Shown piece after piece: positions 250-24,522 of a DNA stretch of 42,834 nt. The stretch comes from Nannocystis exedens. Its GTDB lineage: Bacteria > Myxococcota_A > Polyangia > Polyangiales > Polyangiaceae. Numbering within the stretch: position 1 is the first letter of the stretch; every line of letters starts with the position of its first letter. The stretch lies in the NCBI GenBank assembly GCA_945865595.1, contig CAMBEV010000002.1:1-42834 (forward strand), written 5' to 3'. Position numbers and translations under genes: made by a program. The notes under the pieces are model-generated. The model was not told the origin of the DNA. It searched no databases and saw only the letters and a list, made by a program, of their open reading frames with translations.

Positions 250-1383
250 GTGCGTTCGATGGACACGTTCTTCGACTCGATTCCGGACCCGCGGGTGGAG
301 CGGACGCGGCGCCACAAGCTGACAGACATTGTGCTGATCGTGTTGATCGGCACGATCTGCGACATCAAGGGATGGGACGCGTTGCACGAGTTTACGCAAG
401 ATTCGGACGACTACTTGGAGTCGATTCTGGAGTTGCCTCACGGCGTGCCGAGCGCGGACACGATTCGGCGTGTGATGTCGGCGCTGAACCCGGCGGCGTT
501 TCGGGATGCATTCATCGCATGGGCACAGCAGCTTTGCGCTTCGACAGCGGGCAAGCTGGTTGCGATCGATGGCAAGACCGTACGCGGGGCTTTCTCCGGC
601 GTTGATGGTCAAGGGGCTTTACATCTCGTCAACGCATGGGTTTGCGAAAACGAGATGGTTCTTGGCCAGTACGCAACTGACGTTAAGTCGAATGAGATAA
701 CGGCCATTCCGGAGTTGATCGCGCTTCTCGATCTGCGGGGCGCGATTGTGAGTATCGATGCGATGGGTTGCCAGCGGAACATCGCGCGCTGCATCGTCGA
801 CAAGGGAGCGGAGTACATTTTCGGCCTCAAGGGCAACCAGCCAACGTTGCATCAGGAGGTACTCACCGCGTTCGACACTGCGACATGCGCGCGACTGGAG
901 CTCGATAGAAATGCCTTCGCCCTATCCGCAGACAAGGGCCACGGTCGCCTCGAAACGCGTCGCGTTTGGGTCATGCGCGAAGTCGAATGGCTCACGCGAT
1001 CAGAGCATTGGCCGTCGTTGCGGTCGCTGGTGATGATCGAATCAGAGCGAACGATTCGCGGACGCACATCGCACGAGCGACGCGCGTACATCTCCAGTGT
1101 CGACGCATCTGCGGCTCGATTCGCCGACATCGTTCGAAGCCACTGGCACGTCGAGAACAAACTGCACTGGGTTCTCGACGTCACTTTCGGCGAAGACCAT
1201 GCCCGGATCGCGCGAAAGAACGGTGCCGAAAATATGGCGCTCGTTCGCAAGATAGCGATCAACCTGCTCAAGAACGCACCGGTCAAGAGGCCTGGCGAAA
1301 GTCTCGCTGCGAAACGCAGACGAGCCAATCGGCGCATCGGCGAATTGCTCGGCGTGCTGCGTGCCGGCGTCTCCGCGACGTAA
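250..1383 (+). CDS. ISAs1-family DDE transposase, full length
   Basis: The 377-residue product matches the ISAs1 (H-repeat-associated) transposase layout. An N-terminal region begins near DSIPDPRVERTRRHKL. It is followed by the catalytic core: the first Asp in AIDGKT (about D107), the second in SIDAMGCQ (about D170) and the Glu in SHWHVENKLHWVLDVTF (about E302). It would catalyse transposition of its own element. The frame opens at GTG 250; an ATG at 259 is an equally possible start and would remove three residues. No frameshift or stop interrupts it, so the enzyme looks functional. Terminal inverted repeats and target duplications could not be identified, so the extent of the IS is unknown. 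The neighbouring four-helix cassette begins three bases after its stop codon. Confidence 0.93.
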   Translation: MRSMDTFFDSIPDPRVERTRRHKLTDIVLIVLIGTICDIKGWDALHEFTQDSDDYLESILELPHGVPSADTIRRVMSALNPAAFRDAFIAWAQQLCASTAGKLVAIDGKTVRGAFSGVDGQGALHLVNAWVCENEMVLGQYATDVKSNEITAIPELIALLDLRGAIVSIDAMGCQRNIARCIVDKGAEYIFGLKGNQPTLHQEVLTAFDTATCARLELDRNAFALSADKGHGRLETRRVWVMREVEWLTRSEHWPSLRSLVMIESERTIRGRTSHERRAYISSVDASAARFADIVRSHWHVENKLHWVLDVTFGEDHARIARKNGAENMALVRKIAINLLKNAPVKRPGESLAAKRRRANRRIGELLGVLRAGVSAT

Positions 1384-15068: not shown

Positions 15069-16820
15069 TCAGACGCCGAAGGCGCTGCCTAGCCAAGACG
15101 TAATCACCTCAAGCAACTCGTCCTGCGTTCCGCGCGGCGTAAACGTGTGATCCGCGCGGTCGACCGTCGTTAGGCCGACGACTCCGTCGGCGACTAGCAA
15201 CTGAGTGCGACCGCTCAGCACTTCGTCCAAATAGCTCAATCCTGGATCTGTTTTGCTAAAAATGAAACGGACGTTGGTGCGGTTCGCGGCGAGCTTACGG
15301 AGATTGCGCTCGATCTCACTCGCGGGAATGGCGCCGAGCTGGGTGAGCCATTGCTGAGCTCGCGTTCGCGCTCTGAGCCAACGCTGATGTGCGACAATAC
15401 GAAGTGAGTGCGCGACATTCACTTGCCCGTGCACAAGACGCTTCCACGAACTCAAGTTGTACATGCTGTGACGAACGTTGGCGGCTTCCTTGTACACGGA
15501 GCGGTGGCTCGCCACATCGAGCGAGTCTCCTTCCGTAAACGCAAATGTCTGCGGATTGATCAGAATGAGACCGTCCACCTGGCTCTGCAATGCGGCGTGA
15601 TAGGCCGCGTAGGCACCCGCGCATAAGCCGATCACAACGATCGCGCGCTCGCGCCGCAATTCAGCCAACGTCGTTACAAGCGATTGCAGCGAGCGAGTCG
15701 AATAGAGGAGAGGCGCGACAAGCCCTTGTCCCACGGCGCTATCGCCAAGGCCCTCGAGATCGACGCGCAGTGAGCTTGTTCCGAGCAGCGCGAGGCGCCG
15801 CGCGAGAATCACGTGCGAGCGGTTAACGCCGATGTGATGCACAGCACCCGCGTTCAACATCACAACCAGGGGAGTGCCCGACCTTGCGCCCTGGCTCGGA
15901 TTCGTACGCACCGCGACCAGATCGGGACCCACACGCGTGACGATCTCCTCAACCCTTGTTCCATCAACGTTGAGCATCGCCGAAGCGGCCTTCGCCAGGG
16001 GCAGCGCAACGTCACGCGATAAGGGCGGCGCATCGCTCGCATCCGCCCCACAAAACTCGATGATCGTGCTGCGGAGCCCAGCCGACAATTCGCTCTTGTG
16101 CGGATCCACCATCAGACATTGGTAACCAGTAACGTTACGAACATCAGGCGCCAACCCGTAGCGTGCGAGCTGCGCGGTCGTGCGTGGATCTTCACTGGCG
16201 AGGTCATCGCGAGGGATGACCAGCGTGCGAACACCAGGGTTCGTCCACGAGCGCTGACCGAGCTGTCGCAAACCGTCGAGAGCATCTCGGGATATCCAGT
16301 AGCCAGCAACCTGCGCGCCCTCTTCGGTCCACTCAAGTTCGGCCGGATCACTGCTGAGCCTTGCAAACGCTTGAAGCTCTCGCACGAACGTGGGTCCTGA
16401 AATCGGGGCAAGCATCACGAGGGCGGTGACGTTCGGCATGTCAGGCAGCGCCTCGAGCGCAAGCGCACAACCGACGCGCAATGCGACGATGACGACGCGC
16501 GAAGCGCCCGTTTTCTCACGAAGTACGCGCTCGGCTTCGCGAAGTGAGGCGAGCCAGGCGGACACGCGGTCGGCGTCACGTTCACCACCCGCGGAGTCGC
16601 CGACGCCATCGTAGTCAAAGCGCATCGCCGGGACTCCCGCGACCGCAAGACCCTCGGCGAGAACGCGCATCGACCGATGGGTGCACACCATTTCATAACC
16701 AATCGGCGCACAAATGAGCGCCGCTGTGTCACTCCCTGCCTTGGCGTGATGAAGCCACCCGAAGCAGACCCGCTCCGGTGCCGTTCCCGGTGCAAAGTAC
16801 AGGGGCTCAACAGCGATCAC
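15069..16820 (-). CDS. Tandem alpha/beta hydrolase
   Basis: A 583-residue fusion of two alpha/beta hydrolase domains. The first (residues about 1-270) has RFDYDGVGDSAGG and, at the nucleophile elbow, ALRVGCAL, so the serine of GxSxG is replaced. It resembles the exosortase-associated hydrolase type. The second domain (about 290-583) has LRVDLEGLGDSAVG and an elbow reading GLCAGAYAA, giving a cysteine nucleophile candidate. It ends with a segment carrying DRADHTFTP, a plausible catalytic His. Only the second half therefore looks catalytically competent, perhaps as a thioesterase or acyltransferase releasing a carrier-bound product (inference). No signal peptide is seen. Translation starts at GTG 16820, overlapping the GH2 stop by one base. 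Confidence 0.78.
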   Translation of the reverse strand: MIAVEPLYFAPGTAPERVCFGWLHHAKAGSDTAALICAPIGYEMVCTHRSMRVLAEGLAVAGVPAMRFDYDGVGDSAGGERDADRVSAWLASLREAERVLREKTGASRVVIVALRVGCALALEALPDMPNVTALVMLAPISGPTFVRELQAFARLSSDPAELEWTEEGAQVAGYWISRDALDGLRQLGQRSWTNPGVRTLVIPRDDLASEDPRTTAQLARYGLAPDVRNVTGYQCLMVDPHKSELSAGLRSTIIEFCGADASDAPPLSRDVALPLAKAASAMLNVDGTRVEEIVTRVGPDLVAVRTNPSQGARSGTPLVVMLNAGAVHHIGVNRSHVILARRLALLGTSSLRVDLEGLGDSAVGQGLVAPLLYSTRSLQSLVTTLAELRRERAIVVIGLCAGAYAAYHAALQSQVDGLILINPQTFAFTEGDSLDVASHRSVYKEAANVRHSMYNLSSWKRLVHGQVNVAHSLRIVAHQRWLRARTRAQQWLTQLGAIPASEIERNLRKLAANRTNVRFIFSKTDPGLSYLDEVLSGRTQLLVADGVVGLTTVDRADHTFTPRGTQDELLEVITSWLGSAFGV

Positions 16821-19333
16821 TACGCGTTCTCTCGAATGCTAACCGTCGCATCCATGTTAAGCGCCTTGACTAAACTGAGCGGTGAGAACCTCGCGCCGCT
16901 CTTCTCGGGACGCAGTTTTACTCGCACCACAGCGCCGGGCGCGATGTCGATGAAATCATCGTCCGGCAAAAAACCCCGCGCCGAAAAGCTCACGCATTGC
17001 GCGAAAACGCGCGACTCAAGACGCACATCATAGCTGCCATCCGGACAACTCGCGGCGTGAGCTACAAGGCCCAGGTCACGCTCGCTCGGTCGTCGCATCC
17101 CCAGTGGGAGGTGGCAGGCCGTGATGCCGAGCCGCGCAAGCGTCCCAACACAGAGATCGTGCCCAGGCGCGCCAAAGCGGAAGCTGTAGCTTGAGTCGAC
17201 AAACCGGCCAAGCGCGTCTTCGATGCCTATCACCATCGCTGACCGCGGCTCCACCGCGACGGGCACTACGGCATCGGCCACCCGATCGCGGCCGTCGCGA
17301 TAGAGGACGATCGACAGGTCATCGGAAAACGGCGCATCGGTGTCGTTCCATACGACCACCCTCACGCCGCTATGGCGGTCGTCGATAAAATCAATCGCAA
17401 TCGGTTGCCAAGCCCGTTTGAGCCCGTAAAACGCTGACTTCGGTCGGCCTTGGGCATCAATGATGCCCCAACCCGCGCCGTCGACCAGGTCGCGCAACGT
17501 CCACACAAGCGAGCCCCTGCACGTCGCGCGTGGATCGCGAAATGCCGCCGCTGTGCGCGCCATCACGTGGGCGATCGCGCCCCTCGAGAGCTCGAGGTAG
17601 CGATCCATGCTCGAGAACCGAACCTCACGCGCGCGGTCGCCGAAGAGCGCTTCGATGTAGTGCTCGCGAATATCTTCAAAGTCCCAACCGACGCCGAGGT
17701 CGCGCGGCACCGTGCTCTTCCACTTGGGATGCACCGCGGGCATCTCACCGCTTCCGAGCACGCGCTCAATGGTTACATCATGAGGCACATTTGAGAAGGC
17801 GAGGCACTCTGCCGCGAAGCGCACACCTGCGTGCCGAACGTCATCGAGCGGCCCGCGATACGCGCCCACGCCCCAATAGTGCGTCACACCAGAATCGACC
17901 GAGAACGGCGTACTGCCCCCCGTCGGCGTCGACGTCACATAGGGCACGTCGGGCAACACCTCGCGCGCCACCCTCGGGAGCAGCTCTCCGATAAGCGGCT
18001 GTACCCACTCGGAAGCAGGCAAGCCCATCATCGACGCCTGTTGCTCAATCTCGCTGCCACCGCACAGAACGGCGAGGCTCGGTCTTCCGACGAGGCGCAG
18101 TGCCCGTTGCTCCGCTTCTCGCGTCACGCTCGCGGCGAACTTCGCATCACTCGTCGGGTAGTCCATGTTGGCGAACGCAAAGTCGTGCCACAGCATGATG
18201 CCGCGCGCGTCGAGTGCATCGAAGAACGCGTCCGTTTCGTAAGGCATGGTCCCTGTCGTTCGGAGCATGTTCGCGCCGAGGCTCACAACTTGGTCGATCG
18301 CACGGGCGAGCGCTTCGGGTGAGGCCTGTAACGACAAGGCATCAAGCGGTGTCCAAACGGCGCCCCTACAGAAGATGGGAGTGCCGTTAATGCTCAGCGC
18401 AAACGCCCCGCCGGCGCGATCGAGCGAGACCGTGCGAAAGCCGATCGCGCCGTGCTCGAGGCGCACTCGGCCTCCGTCAACCCACTTGACTTCAATCGCA
18501 ACGGGGTAGAGCGCGGGCTTTCCGTGGGTGTGAGGCCACCACACGTCAATGTTGCCGACGTCGACTTCGTCATCCACCGTAAGTGTGTTGTTCTCGCTTC
18601 GAAATCGGAGACTGCACTCACGTTCGCCGAGCAGAAGCGAAACGCTGGCCGCGTCAACTTGCGAGTGGAGCAACGCGCCGAGCGCAACGCGCACGCTCCC
18701 TCGCTGCCCCGCAAGCGATGGGTGAACCGTCAAGTGACTTACCTGAAGCGCTCCGGTCTCACTCGCGACTACTGGCCTGTACGGACCAAGCGCCGGCGCG
18801 GGCGGCGTCCACCCTGGCATACGCCCGAGAAGGCTTGCGCGAAAGAAGCGCAGATTTTGATGCCCCACGAGGCGCGCCTTGTACCGAGGCCGTGGACGTC
18901 GCTCGTTCAAGAGCGGCGTGAGACCTCGAAAGCGAACCGCGACCTCGTTTGCGCCGGCCGACACAAACGGAACAACATTTGTTACAAACTGATTCTCCGA
19001 AAACAGCCGAGGTTCGCCGTTGATAAACACATTGGCCACTGGCGCGAGGCCTTCGAATCGCAACTGACACAGCGTTCCCACGGGCGACTCAACCCGCGCG
19101 CGATACCAAGCCTCGCCCGCGTCAAGGTCGCCCATGTCGTCAAGCTTCTTTCCTTCGCCAAGAAGCGCGCTCGCGAGCGTTCCCGGTACAGGCGCGCGTC
19201 CCCAACCCTCGTCGGGCAACGCCGAAGGCCGGTCATGCTCACCCGCGCGCGTGAGCAAATAGGACCAATCGGAGAATGCGAGGACACGTTCTTCGCTGTT
19301 GGAAAGCAAGCGAAAGGCGCCGCCGTCGGTCAC
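16820..19333 (-). CDS. Glycoside hydrolase family 2 protein, beta-mannosidase-like, cytoplasmic
   Basis: An 837-residue protein with the GH2 domain series: N-terminal jelly-roll (sugar-binding) region, immunoglobulin-like domain, TIM barrel, and C-terminal beta domains. Barrel signatures are FCRGAVWTPLDALSL, LGANMLRTTGTMPYE and MLWHDFAFANMDYP. The acid/base motif normally written GNNE reads GGSE (in LAVLCGGSEIEQQ). The nucleophile is the Glu in RFAAECLAFSN. Both glutamates are present but their surroundings differ from standard beta-mannosidases, suggesting another substrate. There is no signal peptide, which is unusual for a polysaccharide-degrading GH2 and fits an intracellular step on a small glycoconjugate (inference). 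It overlaps the DUF1839 stop by four bases and the hydrolase start by one. Confidence 0.82.
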   Translation of the reverse strand: MTDGGAFRLLSNSEERVLAFSDWSYLLTRAGEHDRPSALPDEGWGRAPVPGTLASALLGEGKKLDDMGDLDAGEAWYRARVESPVGTLCQLRFEGLAPVANVFINGEPRLFSENQFVTNVVPFVSAGANEVAVRFRGLTPLLNERRPRPRYKARLVGHQNLRFFRASLLGRMPGWTPPAPALGPYRPVVASETGALQVSHLTVHPSLAGQRGSVRVALGALLHSQVDAASVSLLLGERECSLRFRSENNTLTVDDEVDVGNIDVWWPHTHGKPALYPVAIEVKWVDGGRVRLEHGAIGFRTVSLDRAGGAFALSINGTPIFCRGAVWTPLDALSLQASPEALARAIDQVVSLGANMLRTTGTMPYETDAFFDALDARGIMLWHDFAFANMDYPTSDAKFAASVTREAEQRALRLVGRPSLAVLCGGSEIEQQASMMGLPASEWVQPLIGELLPRVAREVLPDVPYVTSTPTGGSTPFSVDSGVTHYWGVGAYRGPLDDVRHAGVRFAAECLAFSNVPHDVTIERVLGSGEMPAVHPKWKSTVPRDLGVGWDFEDIREHYIEALFGDRAREVRFSSMDRYLELSRGAIAHVMARTAAAFRDPRATCRGSLVWTLRDLVDGAGWGIIDAQGRPKSAFYGLKRAWQPIAIDFIDDRHSGVRVVVWNDTDAPFSDDLSIVLYRDGRDRVADAVVPVAVEPRSAMVIGIEDALGRFVDSSYSFRFGAPGHDLCVGTLARLGITACHLPLGMRRPSERDLGLVAHAASCPDGSYDVRLESRVFAQCVSFSARGFLPDDDFIDIAPGAVVRVKLRPEKSGARFSPLSLVKALNMDATVSIRENA

Positions 19334-20337
19334 CGGGCCACTCCCTTCGCGAGTCCCTTCGCGAGTCCGTCATCCATGGCCGAAAAAGCGCGCGTGAGGT
19401 GCTCAGCGATCTCGACGGTGGCACCATCGGCATCGAACAGCTTTGTCGAAGCGGCGGCGCGCGCGAGCTTGAACTGCAACGTTTTTGCCAGATTGGCCAC
19501 CGATACAAATAGTTCTGTTGCGGCTACAAATTGAGGCTCGGCCACCCCATCGAGCCAGCGGAGGTGCGCCCCAAGCAGCTCGCACGCGGCTCCGAGTTGA
19601 CGAACGGCGGCGAACGCATAGGCGTGAAACGAGTCGCCCCCTTGCGCCCGCATCCACGCGACGTGTTCAGGTAGTGCCTTGGCGAACCGCGCCATCGCGC
19701 TGCCATGCTTTTCGTCCCGCATGCGCCTTCGATCGTTGTGGTGCACGAGAAGCTCAAGCGCCATTTTGCGGAGGGTCCGATCGTCTCTTCGGATGAGACC
19801 CTCGAGCTTGGCGATCTCAACGTAAGGAGCAAGCCCCATCGAACCGGCCTGCCTCGAAAAGATGCCCTCGTAATCTTCACCCTCGAGCGAAAAATAACCG
19901 GCATTGTGAAAATATTCGATGCGTTTGGTCGCGCGATCCATCGCGCGCACGCCCACCGATGTCTTCGTGTGCTGAGCACGGTAACTCGTGCCTCGCGTAT
20001 CGGGCAGGAAGAACGCGTCGGCATCCACGATCGGGAGCTGCCCACGCGCGACTTGAACCGCAACTTGCTCTTCGAGCGACCACCACACGTTGAGCTCGCC
20101 GATCGAGATCCCGTAGAGCCGATCGAGATCACCCGCTGGCATCTTGAAGAACGAAAACTGATCACCCTCCCAGTCGATCGCCACGGTAAAGCCGAGCGCC
20201 GCAAGCGAATTGAGGCGAAGCGCGTGAAGCACCTCGATCCACAGGTCGACGTAACAATTGGTCTCAGGCCAAGCCGCACCTGCGCCGTGCAACGCGTGAG
20301 GTTCGTACGGCCGCGGAATCTCAGGCCACGTGAACAT
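19330..20337 (-). CDS. DUF1839 family protein, putative aminoacyl transferase partner
   Basis: The 335-residue protein matches the DUF1839 pattern: ETNCYVDLWIEVLHAL (C28, D31), DWEGDQFSFFK, LYGISIGELNVWW, DADAFFLPDTRGTSYRAQHTKTSVG (H123) and EYFHNAGYFSLEG (H144). As I recall, genes of this family sit beside amino acid:[carrier protein] ligases in other bacteria. The invariant Cys, His and Asp residues would suit a cysteine-dependent transferase taking the aminoacyl group from the carrier (inference). The last half is helical and Ala-rich. The C-terminus contains LAKGLAKG, encoded by a 12-base tandem duplication. It lies 13 bases after the ligase gene and overlaps GH2 as ATGA. Confidence 0.85.
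   Translation of the reverse strand: MFTWPEIPRPYEPHALHGAGAAWPETNCYVDLWIEVLHALRLNSLAALGFTVAIDWEGDQFSFFKMPAGDLDRLYGISIGELNVWWSLEEQVAVQVARGQLPIVDADAFFLPDTRGTSYRAQHTKTSVGVRAMDRATKRIEYFHNAGYFSLEGEDYEGIFSRQAGSMGLAPYVEIAKLEGLIRRDDRTLRKMALELLVHHNDRRRMRDEKHGSAMARFAKALPEHVAWMRAQGGDSFHAYAFAAVRQLGAACELLGAHLRWLDGVAEPQFVAATELFVSVANLAKTLQFKLARAAASTKLFDADGATVEIAEHLTRAFSAMDDGLAKGLAKGVAR
19343..19366. repeat. 12-base tandem duplication in the DUF1839 gene
   Basis: TCCCTTCGCGAG occurs twice in direct succession (19343-19354 and 19355-19366). It adds one extra LAKG unit to the protein's C-terminus without shifting the frame. Confidence 0.85.
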
Positions 20338-20350
20338 GCATCAACCCCTG

Positions 20351-21247
20351 CTAAACAAAAATCCGTTCTCGAACGCCAGCTGGCCACTTGTCGGGATCTA
20401 AGCCGTGGAACTTGAAGAGCGCGAGCGTGACGCGCTCCATGCCGAACCCCACGCAAGCCGTGTGCGCAACTTCGCCATCACTCTGGTTGATTCCGAACGT
20501 CTTGCCGAAGTGCTCTTGGTGATAATTGAAGCTCATGATCGCGGTCGGCTCCTCCACCGTCGCGATGGGAACCACGAGCTCGAACTTCAAGTGCTGCGCG
20601 CGTTGATTCAGCGCGAGCATCTTGCCTCCACGACCAAAGAACGGATCGTTCGCGATCGCGGATTCTGCAGGGAGGCCGAGGTCTTGAAGCCAGTGACCCG
20701 CGCGCTCAATCCATTGATCGCGCCACTCTTCGCACTCTGCGGGTGAGCCGATGCGGATGAACTCGCGCATGCGGAACATCTGCATGCGCGCGGGATCGAT
20801 CGAAGGCTCGTGGCGGAAGCAATAAGAGAACACGTCGATCAGGCGTCCGCCCTTGGCAAGAGGCTCTCGTGCGACGGTGGGATATACCGGGTAGCAAGCC
20901 GCCGGCGTCAGCACCGTATCGGTCATCGCCAGCATGTCCGCCCAAGGCTCTCCGTTTTGAACGCGCTCGAGGAGCGCTGCGTGTTCGGCTGGCGGACGGT
21001 TGAAGCTGAAAACAGGACCGGCAAGGTGCGGAAACGATTTGAGGTAGCCGCTCTTTTCGAAGTTCTCGCGCGTGACGAGCGGAGGAAAGCGCATCACTTG
21101 CGCCTTGTCGTTTTCGGCGAGCCTCGAAATGTAACTATCAAAGCCCAATAAAGCGTCTTCAAAAACACCGCTACGGCCGTACACGCCGTCAACGCCGGTC
21201 GGAATCAGCAGCCCCTTCGCGACCAACTCTTGCAAGAATGTGCTCAT
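20351..21247 (-). CDS. Amino acid:[acyl-carrier-protein] ligase (atypical SerRS homolog)
   Basis: A 298-residue class II aminoacyl-tRNA-synthetase catalytic core without any tRNA-binding domain. Motif 2 reads FRHEPSIDPARMQMFRMREF and motif 3 is GFGMER (267-272). The likely zinc ligands are C118 (PAACYPVYP), E162 (MREFIRIG) and C265 (HTACVGFG), the Cys/Glu/Cys set described for the Bradyrhizobium enzymes. Those homologs adenylate glycine or alanine and transfer it to the phosphopantetheine of a small carrier protein instead of tRNA. The amino acid used here cannot be read from the sequence. GGGAGATCGGGAGCG before ATG 21247 supports the start. It lies between the flavoprotein gene and the DUF1839 gene, with its carrier two genes upstream. 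Confidence 0.92.
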   Translation of the reverse strand: MSTFLQELVAKGLLIPTGVDGVYGRSGVFEDALLGFDSYISRLAENDKAQVMRFPPLVTRENFEKSGYLKSFPHLAGPVFSFNRPPAEHAALLERVQNGEPWADMLAMTDTVLTPAACYPVYPTVAREPLAKGGRLIDVFSYCFRHEPSIDPARMQMFRMREFIRIGSPAECEEWRDQWIERAGHWLQDLGLPAESAIANDPFFGRGGKMLALNQRAQHLKFELVVPIATVEEPTAIMSFNYHQEHFGKTFGINQSDGEVAHTACVGFGMERVTLALFKFHGLDPDKWPAGVRERIFV

Positions 21248-21261
21248 CGCTCCCGATCTCC

Positions 21262-22434
21262 CTAAGAATCGTCTTTGTAGACCTGCAGCAGCTGCGCATT
21301 GGTCATGTGCAGACGATCGTTGTTGATCATCAGCTGCGCGGAGAATGAGTCACGCAGCAGCCGGCCGAGCGAGAACGGCGACGTGTTCTTGTAACCCATG
21401 ATGCCGCAGATCGGCATCGCGGCAGTTACAATTTCGGCGACCGACGTCGAGGCGACGAGCTTCAAGTTATTGAGGCGAAGCGCGTAGCCGATTGACAATA
21501 AATGATCTTTATCAATTTTATTGACCATCGCGCCGTTGTACTCTTCGGCCATCGCATAAACGAGCGTGCGAAATGACTGCAGCCGTGCCTGCAACTCTGA
21601 CAAGCGCAAACCGCTTGCCGGTGGTCCGTTCGGGTTCTTTCGCGCCTCGGCTCTCACGAACGCGCGCGCCCGCGATACAGCCTCGGTTGCGATACCCAGC
21701 CACACGCCACCCCAGAGCAAGTGAGAGAGCGGCACCATGGACAGCGGCGCGATATCGCCGAAGCCTTCGCGCAAAACTTGGTCAGCCCTGCCTTTGCCCC
21801 TCACAAGGAAAGGCGGACTGCACGTTCCGCGCATACCCAAGGTGTCCCATTCAGACTTTTGTTCCAGCGTGTAGTCACCGGGCTTCAGCCAAACGAGCGA
21901 CTGGTCCGCCGGTGCTGAATCGGGATGACGGCGAGCCGTAAGCAGCAAGCCGTCGGCCTGTGCTCCGTAGGAGATGGTCGTCGCATCCTTGACGATTGAA
22001 AACGTGTCGCCGGTCGTCTCGACGGCACACACGCTTCGACGAAGGTCTCCACCCACGCCAACCTCGGAGGTCACCGAAGCGACGAGCCACTTCTTGTCGC
22101 AAATCTCGCGGACGTAGCCCTGCGTCGCGTCGCTGCCCGCGGCATGCGCCGCCATCGAGAGAAGCTTGATGTGGTGCATCGCGAACACCATGCCAGTCGC
22201 CGAGCAGCCCTGCGCGAGCCCTTGGCACATGGACACCACGTCGGGAACCGTCGCCCCAAGACCACCGAGCTCGCGCGGTACAGATGCAGCCAAAAGCCCC
22301 TCTGCACGAACCGCCTCTATGGCTTCTTTTGGGAAACGCGCTTGACGATCGACATCGTCAGCGTGCAAACGCGCGATCTCGCGCCCGATCGCCCGTGCCT
22401 TTTCAACAGGTGTGCCTTCGACGGATGCGCTCAT
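21262..22434 (-). CDS. Acyl-CoA-dehydrogenase-fold flavoprotein acting on the carrier (putative)
   Basis: The 390-residue protein has the acyl-CoA dehydrogenase fold: helical N-terminus with VPRELGGLGATVPDVV, a beta domain with SVTSEVGVGGDLRRSVCAV and WDTLGMRGTCSPPFLV, then the C-terminal four-helix domain with CGIMGYKNTSPFSLGRLLRDS. It should bind FAD. Where ordinary dehydrogenases have the YEGTS glutamate base, this protein reads QLMINNDR, so that residue appears to be missing. It may use another base or act as an oxygenase-like or amine-oxidising flavoprotein. In the operon it would oxidise the carrier-bound amino acid (inference). Its ATG overlaps the carrier's TGA by one base, tying their translation together. 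Confidence 0.85.
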   Translation of the reverse strand: MSASVEGTPVEKARAIGREIARLHADDVDRQARFPKEAIEAVRAEGLLAASVPRELGGLGATVPDVVSMCQGLAQGCSATGMVFAMHHIKLLSMAAHAAGSDATQGYVREICDKKWLVASVTSEVGVGGDLRRSVCAVETTGDTFSIVKDATTISYGAQADGLLLTARRHPDSAPADQSLVWLKPGDYTLEQKSEWDTLGMRGTCSPPFLVRGKGRADQVLREGFGDIAPLSMVPLSHLLWGGVWLGIATEAVSRARAFVRAEARKNPNGPPASGLRLSELQARLQSFRTLVYAMAEEYNGAMVNKIDKDHLLSIGYALRLNNLKLVASTSVAEIVTAAMPICGIMGYKNTSPFSLGRLLRDSFSAQLMINNDRLHMTNAQLLQVYKDDS

Positions 22435-22676
22435 CAGCGGCCCCCTGTCAGTTCTGAGAGAGCCGCGTGGATGTTGCGAATGCTCTCGAAGACGCTGCGC
22501 TTAAGCATGCGATCGGGGAACTCGACATCGAATGCACCCTCGAGTGCAAGCATCACGTTGACACTCGCGTGCGAGGTCATGCCGGCCTGATAGAGATCGG
22601 CATCTTCGGCGAGCGAAGTCGCGTCAGTGCCCAGCTTTCCGTGCTGTTGTAAAATGGTGCGTATTTGGTTCTGCAT
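22434..22676 (-). CDS. Small acyl/aminoacyl carrier protein
   Basis: An 80-residue acidic helical protein when started at ATG 22676. The phosphopantetheine attachment site is S35 in DLYQAGMTSHASVNVMLALE, where the usual Asp-Ser-Leu is replaced by Thr-Ser-His. The following EGAFDVEFPDRMLKRSVFES is the recognisable helix II-III region. It resembles the dedicated carriers that accept amino acids from SerRS-like ligases rather than fatty acid ACP. It would hold the aminoacyl thioester during later steps. The frame is open upstream to 22817, but that part covers the intercistronic hairpin and is unlikely to be coding. Its stop overlaps the flavoprotein start. Confidence 0.9.
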   Translation of the reverse strand: MQNQIRTILQQHGKLGTDATSLAEDADLYQAGMTSHASVNVMLALEGAFDVEFPDRMLKRSVFESIRNIHAALSELTGGR

Positions 22677-22716
22677 GGTCACCCGCAGGGATTTTTGATC
22701 TCGCCGAGGATACGAC

Positions 22717-22745
22717 ACCTTTCCGCCTTGGCTGAGAGGAAAGGT
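22717..22745 (-). promoter_or_regulatory. Stem-loop between acpS and the carrier gene
   Basis: On the transcribed strand ACCTTTCC is followed after 13 bases by GGAAAGGT, a perfect eight-base stem that begins at the last base of the acpS stop codon. No uridine run follows, so it looks less like an intrinsic terminator than like an mRNA processing or stabilising element. It would separate the two upstream enzymes from the carrier. Confidence 0.55.
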
Positions 22746-23149
22746 TACGCTTGCGTAACGGTCGCCAAGACAACCGCCCCAGCGGTGTGGCGCACGTGCG
22801 TCAGGCTTATTGAACACACACTAAAGTGGGTGGCCTCTGCTCGCACGCGCACTTCTCCGTGCAATCGAACGGTGCAACTTCCCGAAGCGCCGCGCACGAT
22901 TTCGATGTCGCGAAAGCTACGCGGGCTCTCCGCGGGCCACTGCAGCGCCTTGAACACGGCCTCCTTGGCGGCAAACCGCGCCGCGAGTCGTTCAACGCGC
23001 TGCGACGGTGAGGCTTCCGCGTACGCGATCTCGGCGGGCAAATAGATCCGGTCGAGGTACGATTGACCGAAGGCATCGAGCGCCTCGCGCACTTCGTCGC
23101 ACTCGACGAGGTCGAACCCCACCACGGGCACCTGGGTCAAGGCATTCAT
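22745..23149 (-). CDS. acpS: Holo-[acyl-carrier-protein] synthase (AcpS-type phosphopantetheinyl transferase)
   Basis: A 134-residue AcpS-type enzyme that transfers 4'-phosphopantetheine from CoA to a carrier serine. Family motifs are GFDLVE (11-16, magnesium-binding D13), ERLAARFAAKEAVFKAL (53-69, E63) and SLTH (115-118). The start at ATG 23149 is set by the ATGA overlap with the kamA stop; an open extension to 23218 lies inside kamA and is not needed. Its place directly before the small carrier gene suggests a dedicated activator, though it may equally be the cell's general AcpS. A stem-loop follows immediately after its stop. Confidence 0.88.
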   Translation of the reverse strand: MNALTQVPVVGFDLVECDEVREALDAFGQSYLDRIYLPAEIAYAEASPSQRVERLAARFAAKEAVFKALQWPAESPRSFRDIEIVRGASGSCTVRLHGEVRVRAEATHFSVCSISLTHVRHTAGAVVLATVTQA

Positions 23150-24522
23150 CGTAGCCGCTGACGCGCCTTGAGGAGGGCATCGCTCACCATGAAGTCGACC
23201 TGCACCGGATCGGCCCATCGTCGCTGTTGGTGAACACTCAGTTGGTGAAGTGGGTCGAAGTAGAGAAAGAAGCGTCCCGGCTTGACCGAAGGGGCTTGGT
23301 AGACACTCACACCGGTGTCGCGATCGTAGTATTCGTAACTGTGCGCGTCGCGTTTTCCGCCGCCGCCTGGCGCGTCGACGACGAACACCGGCGTATTGAA
23401 GCCTGCGGTCGTGCCCCGCACATGCTTCTCGATGAAGAGCGCTGTTTCAACCGAGGTGCGCAGGTCCTCGACGCCCTTCACAAGGTCGTGAACGTAAACG
23501 TAATAAGGGTGCACATTCACATGGCCAAGCCGCTTGACCAACAGCGTCATGAGGTCGGGGGTGTCGTTCACACCACGCTGCAGCACCGTCTGGTTGCGAA
23601 CAACGATTCCTCGTTCGGTGAGGCGGTCCATTGCGAGCTTGGTGATCCCGGTGATCTCGACGGCGTGATTGAAGTGCGTGTGGAGCACGACCTCTTTGTG
23701 GAGCTTGCGCCCCTTGTCAACGACGCGTGTGAGCGCATCGGTCCAGGCCGTGTCAGTCAGGATTTTTTGCGGCATGACGGCCGGCCCCTTGGTCGCGAAC
23801 CGCATGCGTCTCACGTTGGGTATTGCGAGCAGCCGCTCCCCAATTTCTTCAAGTTGCGACGCGCGCAGCTGATAGGCGTCTCCCCCACTGATCACAATGT
23901 CCTCAAGTTCGGGACGCGACGCGATGTAATCGAATGCGCGTTCCCACCGCTCTTCGCTCGCGCGCAGGTGCACCTTTTCGACCTCTTCGGTGTCGAGGCC
24001 AATCGCATAACTGCGCGTGCAAAATCGGCAATAAACCGGACATTGATCGAGTGGAAGGAACAGCGCCTTGTCGGGGTACCGATGGGTGAGCCCTGGCGTT
24101 GGGGCGTCCTCCATCTCGTGGAGTGAATCGAGATCGAGTTTCGGATGATCAGGCAGCAGGAGCGAGCCTACAGGCAGAAATTGTAACCGAAGAGGATCCG
24201 AATAGGGGTCGTCCCAATCGATGAGGCCCAAGATGTAGGGACTCACACGCAAGCTCATCGGCGCGTGCTTGATGCCAAGTTCGACGTCTTCGAAAAAGGC
24301 CGGGCTCACGCGATCGCCGAGCACCTCGCGAAGCTTAGCCACCTTCGTGACCGAGTGTTTCGCTTGCCATAGGTGATCGAGAAATGTCTCTCGGGACACT
24401 TCGGCAAAGGCGGGAACGCTTCGCCAAAACTCGTCGTCACGAAGCTCACGGAATGCAAAAGCACTCGCGTCAACAGGCGGCCTGTGCACCTTCACTTCGG
24501 GGACCACCGGCAGCGTCTTCAT
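23146..24522 (-). CDS. kamA: Lysine 2,3-aminomutase family radical SAM enzyme
   Basis: A 458-residue PLP- and SAM-dependent radical enzyme expected to convert L-lysine to beta-lysine. The iron-sulfur cluster motif is CPVYCRFC (C161, C165, C168) and the PLP-binding lysine is K390 in DAPGGGGK. The two aspartates that hold the lysine side-chain amine in the clostridial enzyme correspond to D320 (LQRGVND) and D346 (YVYVHD), both kept here. This supports lysine as substrate and argues against a glutamate or arginine variant. The protein is longer than EpmB, making an EF-P role less likely. It is the first gene of the operon and overlaps acpS by four bases. It starts 56 bases from the divergent cytochrome gene. 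Confidence 0.88.
   Translation of the reverse strand: MKTLPVVPEVKVHRPPVDASAFAFRELRDDEFWRSVPAFAEVSRETFLDHLWQAKHSVTKVAKLREVLGDRVSPAFFEDVELGIKHAPMSLRVSPYILGLIDWDDPYSDPLRLQFLPVGSLLLPDHPKLDLDSLHEMEDAPTPGLTHRYPDKALFLPLDQCPVYCRFCTRSYAIGLDTEEVEKVHLRASEERWERAFDYIASRPELEDIVISGGDAYQLRASQLEEIGERLLAIPNVRRMRFATKGPAVMPQKILTDTAWTDALTRVVDKGRKLHKEVVLHTHFNHAVEITGITKLAMDRLTERGIVVRNQTVLQRGVNDTPDLMTLLVKRLGHVNVHPYYVYVHDLVKGVEDLRTSVETALFIEKHVRGTTAGFNTPVFVVDAPGGGGKRDAHSYEYYDRDTGVSVYQAPSVKPGRFFLYFDPLHQLSVHQQRRWADPVQVDFMVSDALLKARQRLR

Follow-up and report, generated by a model that had tools for sequence, protein, structure and literature searches.

What does a family 2 glycoside hydrolase (GH2) without an export signal do among genes for the handling of carrier-bound amino acids? 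The question is raised by a locus of Nannocystis exedens, of which we analysed a contiguous stretch of 42,834 nucleotides (the window). An earlier note, made from the letters of the window, had read the enzyme as a glycosidase with an altered motif that, within an aminoacyl-carrier operon, may trim or transfer a sugar on an intermediate or have been recruited as an aminoacyl-sugar enzyme. Here we describe the protein, its clade, the conservation of its gene module and the predicted fold of its neighbour DUF1839, and we propose a pathway and weigh it against the alternatives.

Results

A cytoplasmic GH2 protein is supported by frame and hydropathy

The GH2 protein (16820..19333, minus strand; 837 aa, GTG start) carries CGGSE at residues 424–428 and AECLAFS at residues 508–514, and phmmer alignments to 5n6u and 2vjx match E428 with the acid/base residue and E509 with the nucleophile of GH2 beta-mannosidases; the frame, the two motifs and the retention of both glutamates are as the earlier note had described them. 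The plus strand of the same interval is interrupted by stops. GH2 domains PF22666 and PF00703 score above their Pfam cut-offs, the top phmmer matches in the PDB are beta-mannosidases (5n6u, E 2e-43), and the AlphaFold2 model (pLDDT 89.1) matches 5n6u over its full length (Z 38.4, rmsd 3.0, 775 aligned residues) and the glucosaminidase CsxA with Z 32.8.

The gene overlaps that of DUF1839 by four bases (19330–19333), and the protein lacks an export signal, two further points on which the initial description held. By a simple hydropathy heuristic (Kyte–Doolittle, not SignalP), no signal peptide is seen, the 11-residue hydrophobicity peaking at 1.17 within the first 45 residues. A signal sequence from a different start had been named as an observation that would overturn the idea; the frame is closed by a stop 13 codons before the GTG, within DUF1839, so no alternative start can supply one, and a missed signal peptide is ruled out. 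The same heuristic found signal peptides in 0/32 GH2 rows, with the start codon chosen by us in 8 of the 32. A cytoplasmic location of the GH2 is thus supported.

The GH2 gene belongs to an aminoacyl-carrier operon

As had been claimed, the gene sits inside an aminoacyl-carrier operon, a tightly packed run on the minus strand that encodes, from downstream to upstream, a tandem alpha/beta hydrolase (15069..16820), the GH2, a papain-like DUF1839 protein (19330..20337), a class II SerRS-like amino acid--[carrier protein] ligase (20351..21247), an acyl-CoA-dehydrogenase-like flavoprotein (21262..22434), a carrier protein (22434..22676), an AcpS-type phosphopantetheinyl transferase (22745..23149) and a KamA-like radical SAM protein (23146..24522), the last probably on the same transcript. 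The start of the carrier protein, inferred from homologues, is M48 of a longer frame (22434–22817) and gives 80 aa; that of the AcpS-type protein is likewise inferred, its longer frame reaching 23218.

The ligase scores 450.7 bits against the PRK07080 equivalog (cut-off 357) in an NCBIfam-type profile scan and has a solved homologue, Bll0957. The carrier protein scores above the cut-off of PRK07081, and its phosphopantetheine site (S82 of the longer frame) is Ser in 71/71 rows. This pair of ligase and carrier protein is common to the module and to the Bll0957-type amino acid:[carrier protein] ligases. We know of no settled product of the SerRS-like ligases.

The flavoprotein differs from canonical acyl-CoA dehydrogenases at the active site: their catalytic Glu (IYEGT) aligns with Ile370 in a phmmer alignment to 8i4p, and position 370 is Ile in 45, Val in 27 and Ala in 2 of 74 rows, the only Glu residues conserved in at least 93% of the rows being E37 and E124. 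The missing Glu makes a Glu-dependent desaturation doubtful; some true acyl-CoA dehydrogenases carry the catalytic base elsewhere. In the alpha/beta hydrolase, the nucleophile of the N lobe is replaced by Arg (window) or Gly (others); the C lobe has a GxCxG motif with Cys400, Asp525 and His558, and this Cys is found in 54/55 rows with a residue there. The protein probably resembles acyltransferases or thioesterases more closely than esterases. Its nearest models are those of exosortase-A-system hydrolases 1 and 2, both below the NCBIfam cut-offs (117.7 bits against a cut-off of 168.45, and 69.8 against 202.75).

The SE motif marks a clade that fits GH2_14

Is GGSE a peculiarity of this one enzyme? 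Across 94 aligned GH2 rows, the majority of which come from a two-pattern scan with one pattern containing CG[GN]SE, E428 and E509 are invariant (94/94 each) and S427 is found in 93/94. These rows are the window protein and 93 matches above 300 bits; 11 weaker matches, including beta-mannosidase-like and glucosaminidase-like ones, were left out. Among homologues gathered without a pattern, Ser precedes the acid/base residue in 9/9 rows, window included, of an alignment that omits the GH2 fragments of two genomes. Conservation of the catalytic Glu and the Ser across the rows means that the motif is not due to chance; judged from the alignments, members of this clade as a rule have GGSE, GNSE or GSSE, and the form in the window is not a local oddity. 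Residue 360 is Gly in 65, Ser in 12, Val in 7, Pro in 5, Thr in 4 and Ile in 1 of the 94 rows, with Thr360 in the window. The canonical, beta-mannosidase-like GH2s L012–L014 have GNNE and Trp at this position, which, for the beta-mannosidase-like GH2s encountered here, answers in the negative the question, posed with the original claim, of whether GGSE is common in standard secreted mannosidases.

SE for NE and Gly for His/Trp near C2/C3 have been published as the marks of subfamily GH2_14, the subfamily with the fewest signal peptides, whose closest kin are beta-mannosidases (PMC12243196, Lebreton 2025). The idea of an individual alteration is therefore not supported: SE is a subfamily mark in that paper, and S427 is near-universal in our rows. 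Placed by the published description, the window GH2 fits GH2_14: it has SE (S427-E428), no signal peptide, a small residue for the mannosidase Trp and kinship with beta-mannosidases, and it differs in having Thr360 where the description has Gly.

Two other placements were rejected. Standard beta-mannosidases (GH2_13) have the fold and the two carboxylates in common with the window protein but differ from it in their NE and Trp, against SE, Thr360 and the gene context here. GH2_16 exo-glucosaminidases are alike in fold, in the two carboxylates and in the Ser before the acid/base residue but have SD in place of SE; the Ig_GlcNase domain (PF18368) typical of them has no match in the window GH2 or in its own genome.

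In a quick tree, for which the tool warned of long branches, a single branch separates 32 module GH2s from six other GH2s (SH-aLRT 99). Pseudomonadota and Myxococcota are intermingled on the module side, a pattern expected from horizontal transfer.

Published assays bear on what such an enzyme might do. According to PMC12243196, two GH2_14 members cleave pNP-beta-Gal, with rates of 1.2 and 2.8 per min; weak action on lacto-N-tetraose and beta-1,6-galactobiose is described for one of the enzymes, and mannobiose, mannotriose and the tested galactose polysaccharides gave no activity; the panel included pNP-GlcNAc and pNP-GalNAc, for neither of which the Results text names an activity, and contained no free-amine or aminoacyl sugars. 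The same paper gives the natural substrate of GH2_14 as unknown and describes GH2_16, which also has Ser before the acid/base residue, as acting on C2-amino sugars. It is very unlikely, in our judgement, that the window protein is an ordinary catabolic beta-mannosidase or beta-galactosidase that stands in the operon by chance: the close fit to the beta-mannosidase fold of 5n6u and the cleavage of pNP-beta-Gal and, weakly, of two galactosides by GH2_14 proteins would suit such an enzyme, but the inactivity on mannobiose, mannotriose and the tested galactose polysaccharides (PMC12243196), the change from NE to SE with loss of the mannosidase Trp, and the co-occurrence with DUF1839 and the ligase described below all speak against it. 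Still less credible is a non-catalytic scaffold; the slowness of the two assayed enzymes (PMC12243196) would agree with it, but both catalytic Glu are retained in every one of the 94 rows.

The module is conserved in several phyla

The order carrier protein, flavoprotein, ligase, DUF1839, GH2 was found on 6/6 plasmid regions examined first, all from Alpha- and Betaproteobacteria (Azospirillum, two regions; Rhizobium, Mycetohabitans, Caballeronia and Shinella, one each), with the alpha/beta hydrolase directly after the GH2 in three of the six. At least 570 genome stretches encode a relative of the GH2 (tblastn, E up to 1e-3), and the best 80 of these at least 570 loci, which we examined, span Pseudomonadota, Myxococcota, Planctomycetota, Acidobacteriota, Chloroflexota and Abditibacteriota. 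At these best 80 loci, counting matches above 45 bits within at most 10 kb and including short contigs, DUF1839 accompanies the GH2 at 75, the flavoprotein at 71, the carrier protein at 70, the ligase at 69 and the alpha/beta hydrolase at 55. The core order flavoprotein, ligase, DUF1839, GH2 is repeated in relatives, and the positions of the carrier protein, AcpS and hydrolase vary; at 8/80 loci the gene order is rearranged with the carrier protein still directly before the GH2. Eleven of the 80 loci have no ligase nearby. Whole genomes were checked for ten of them: the ligase lies elsewhere in six, and four GH2-bearing genomes, whose assemblies may be incomplete, show no ligase match.

KamA-type genes stand beside 16/80 module loci, and at so few loci KamA (lysine 2,3-aminomutase) is not supported as a core part of the module. 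At Rhizobium loci, KamA-type genes occur alongside EpmA-like and EF-P-like genes, as identified by eye from sequence.

Among 59 related genomes, a GH2_14-type protein (E below 1e-90) is present in 11, DUF1839 in exactly the same 11, and the ligase, above cut-off, in these 11 and one more (G045); in one of the 11 (G002) the ligase is on a different contig from the GH2 (C370). If two sets of 11 were drawn at random from the 59, the probability of their full agreement would be 4e-12, a figure that kinship among the genomes makes too small. PF17786, used to look for canonical mannosidases, was found in 3/59 of the genomes only. More distant GH2s of other kinds occur in three genomes outside the 11 (G005, G025 and G030) and also in one of the 11 (G023). 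No further GH2_14 carrier, and two weak GH2 matches, came from 80 genomes of the order of G063.

Plasmids give a similar picture, with losses. All 50 plasmid records that match the GH2 at E below 1e-90 have both DUF1839 and the ligase, and the GH2 is found on plasmids of plant-associated Rhizobium and Azospirillum too. Conversely, 9/59 DUF1839 plasmid records, all of them Rhizobium, are without a GH2 below 1e-90, three of these nine also being without a ligase below 1e-60; the GH2 can therefore be lost there, and the two GH2-less records inspected retain GH2 remnants of 166 and 31 residues. DUF1839 is missing from 3/59 ligase plasmid records. In several phyla the module regularly includes the GH2. 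This displaces the notion that it was recruited at the present locus, and a one-off recruitment is ruled out by the wide conservation.

Neighbouring genes point to polysaccharides at a minority of loci

A Pfam/NCBIfam scan of 112 of 146 neighbour proteins (the 34 left out, by our choice, were long ones and some others) revealed no second fixed partner. Of the 112, two match models of prolyl-carrier-protein dehydrogenase and two that of a flavin reductase. The commonest Pfam families were glycosyltransferases (5/112), and the commonest other neighbour cluster, GT4-like by eye, occurs at 24/80 loci; the module has neither a glycosyltransferase nor a nucleotide-sugar gene as a constant member.

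These neighbours bear on the main rival explanation, decoration of a surface polysaccharide, in which the module would aminoacylate a sugar, either within a lipid-linked repeat unit or as an exopolysaccharide nucleotide sugar, and the GH2 would edit or recycle misbuilt units in the cytoplasm. We consider it possible but rather unlikely. The GT4-like neighbours agree with it, and a bacterial sugar transferase (PF02397) is encoded no more than 25 kb from the GH2 in 5/25 genomes (expected 0.67, P about 4e-4 under a random-placement model) and within 60 kb in 8/25 (expected 1.5); the 25 were picked from the 80 for taxonomic spread, mostly with long contigs, and after the neighbours of some loci were known, so that a bias of choice may enter these figures. 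A Tsukamurella plasmid carries the ligase, carrier protein and phosphopantetheinyl transferase inside an exopolysaccharide cluster, the alpha/beta hydrolase finds its closest models, if below their cut-offs, among exosortase-A-system hydrolases, and a glycan role of DUF1839 has been guessed from gene context (PMC10318531). On the other side, 20/25 genomes have no PF02397 within 25 kb, a single epimerase is the only nucleotide-sugar-type gene that Pfam detects in 29 scanned frames of the window, and the module contains no membrane transferase. The excess of PF02397 in a minority of genomes makes a polysaccharide link likely for that minority.

A second rival, self-protection or activation, supposes that a bioactive aminoacyl compound is stored as a glycoside from which GH2_14 strips the sugar in the cytoplasm. 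In a Priestia record the carrier protein, flavoprotein and ligase lie beside an ATP-grasp protein, an Ala permease, Alr and a D-Ala-D-Ala ligase, an arrangement that resembles an alanine-antimetabolite cluster; but this record falls outside both the DUF1839 plasmid records and the GH2 records at 1e-90, and no glycosyltransferase is constant in the module. We regard this explanation as improbable.

DUF1839 is predicted to fold like carrier-protein-dependent amide synthases

Foldseek ranks CtaG, AziU2-U3 and CcbD first for the DUF1839 model (pLDDT 92.2), with best E of 6e-6, 1e-4 and 9e-4, respectively. In VIA-align, the model matches CcbD (9dks_B) over almost its full length (Z 19.4, rmsd 3.9, 296 aligned), an AziU2-U3 chain with Z 18.7 and CtaG with Z 17.9, the next among the matches listed having Z 8.8. 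The model thus has the fold of the CcbD/LmbD condensing enzymes, in which C-terminal helices are added to a papain-like domain. No sequence homology to CcbD was detected: CcbD is absent from the PDB chains that a DUF1839 profile matched at E up to 10. CtaG makes amides, and AziU3 acts in aziridine formation; to our knowledge AziU3, of the same fold, is not an amide synthase.

C28, H123 and H144 of DUF1839 are found in 76/76 rows with a residue there, and position 127 is Thr or Ser in 76/76 (Thr in 73; S127 in the window). The triad is C28, T/S127 and H144, in agreement with the published description of DUF1839 as papain-like with a C(T/S)H triad (PMC10318531), the main text of which does not mention CcbD, LmbD, CtaG or AziU. 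It is not the Cys-His-Glu of CcbD/LmbD, for which a ping-pong mechanism has been described and which form the amide between carrier-bound proline or alkylproline and the amino group of a thiooctose (PMC12945683); a paper of 2015 described LmbD/CcbD as unlike any other sequence then known (PMC4351081). With the predicted fold of DUF1839 being that of CcbD, an enzyme that joins a carrier-bound amino acid to an amino sugar, an aminoacyl-sugar role becomes the favoured guess. To this extent the earlier note's suggestion stands, for the GH2_14 module as a whole and not for an individually altered enzyme.

Discussion

We propose, with a little short of an even chance of being right, that the module transfers an aminoacyl group from the carrier protein to an amine, which probably sits on a sugar, and that GH2_14 processes a glycoside in the cytoplasm. 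Around the observed clade, motif, module, co-occurrence and model folds we infer five reactions. First, the SerRS-like ligase would activate a small amino acid and load it onto the carrier protein, the function being known for the family and the choice of amino acid being our extrapolation. Second, the flavoprotein may alter the aminoacyl group on the carrier protein; given the missing Glu, this reaction is probably not the usual Glu-dependent alpha,beta-desaturation. Third, the Cys of DUF1839 would accept the aminoacyl group and hand it to an amine, most likely of a sugar, in the manner of CcbD in celesticetin synthesis; this step is suggested by the fold, the Cys and the gene neighbourhood. 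Fourth, GH2_14, as a retaining beta-glycosidase, would cleave or transfer at the beta-glycosidic bond, either in the aminoacylated glycoside or in its precursor, with a −1 pocket presumably opened near C2/C3 by the N-to-S and W-to-small changes. Fifth, the Cys-type alpha/beta hydrolase may carry out a further acyl transfer or a release.

The closest parallel is lincosamide synthetase (CcbC/CcbZ-CP/CcbD; LmbC/LmbN-CP/LmbD), in which activation, carrier loading and joining to an amine by a papain-like protein of the same fold are alike, on the module's side by prediction. The two differ in that lincosamide synthetase uses an NRPS A domain where the module has the SerRS-like ligase, in the triad order and the lack of detectable sequence similarity between CcbD/LmbD and DUF1839, and in the GH2_14, flavoprotein and alpha/beta hydrolase that the module has in addition. 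The dlt and alm systems, too, load a carrier protein with an amino acid that is then passed to a glycan or lipid, a plan like that of the module; their transfer step uses DltB/DltD or an AlmG-type membrane transferase, neither of which was seen here.

Several observations count against the proposed pathway. The assayed GH2_14 enzymes behave like slow beta-galactosidases with no named activity on N-acetyl sugars (PMC12243196), which may mean that a galacto sugar occupies −1 and that the aminoacyl group sits elsewhere. The dissimilarity of DUF1839 and CcbD in sequence and triad, the different role of AziU3 despite its like fold, the Rhizobium DUF1839 records that lack the GH2, the four GH2 genomes that show no ligase and the want of a constant glycosyltransferase or nucleotide-sugar gene weigh in the same direction. 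In its favour stand the recurrent core order, the co-occurrence of GH2, DUF1839 and ligase, the separation of the module GH2s in the tree, the CcbD-like model of DUF1839 and the carrier protein that keeps its place before the GH2 at the rearranged loci; moreover GH2_16, an amino-sugar enzyme, likewise has Ser before the acid/base residue (PMC12243196).

The SE motif itself has already been published. The module setting of GH2_14 is new within the literature searched: we found neither GH2_14 nor DUF1839 tied to a carrier-protein module in the open-access literature, subscription journals lying mostly outside the search, and the main text of PMC12243196 contains neither "acyl carrier" nor "genomic context".

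In a wider sense it is possible, if doubtful, that many bacteria of several phyla make unrecognised N-aminoacyl amino-sugar glycosides by means of a stand-alone ligase, a carrier protein and a DUF1839 amide synthase, planned like lincosamides, mycothiol or bacillithiol, with GH2_14 as a dedicated glycosidase or transglycosidase that may act on the carrier-bound substrate. The module is widespread in bacteria, and the GH2 is common. The module, together with the modelled fold of DUF1839, that of carrier-protein-dependent amide synthases, offers a first lead to the function of several orphan enzyme families, and the proposed pathway would join three orphans, GH2_14, DUF1839 and the SerRS-like ligase, in one.

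Further genes in the window

At the upstream end of the module, a gene for a KamA-like radical SAM protein (window 23146–24522, − strand) lies upstream of the carrier protein gene and overlaps the inferred start of the phosphopantetheinyl transferase gene (AcpS) by 4 bases; a KamA-like gene in such placement is also present in the window's genus. The Rhizobium loci have a different KamA-type gene upstream of the carrier protein gene, together with EpmA- and EF-P-like neighbours identified by eye. The tandem α/β hydrolase (window 15069–16820, − strand) comprises two lobes, of which the second has a cysteine nucleophile and the first has no nucleophile. Close to the window's edge lies a DDE transposase gene (window 250–1383, + strand).

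Observations on loci in other genomes

Two Rhizobium plasmids keep the genes for the carrier protein, flavoprotein, ligase and DUF1839 protein, and retain just a remnant of GH2 (L128, 8953–9450; L129, 8953–9045); in L128, the remnant is followed by an IS5-family element. In the GH2 tree, the GH2 of a MAG titled Klebsiella pneumoniae (L107) clusters with those of Acidobacteriota and Abditibacteriota; this record is probably a mislabelled bin.

A Priestia plasmid (L130, 869–14692) carries AcpS, carrier protein, flavoprotein and ligase genes accompanied by ATP-grasp, alanine permease, alanine racemase and D-Ala-D-Ala ligase genes, a set that looks like an alanine antimetabolite cluster. On a Tsukamurella plasmid (L131, 4731–14900), a record absent from both the DUF1839 and the GH2 record sets, an exopolysaccharide cluster encloses ligase, carrier protein and phosphopantetheinyl transferase genes.

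Two further loci (L116, 19223–22362; L053, 10213–11745) lack the SerRS-like ligase and have an AMP-forming ligase-like gene close by, as identified by eye; L116 additionally contains a second acyl-CoA-dehydrogenase-like gene. The loading step may have been replaced there.
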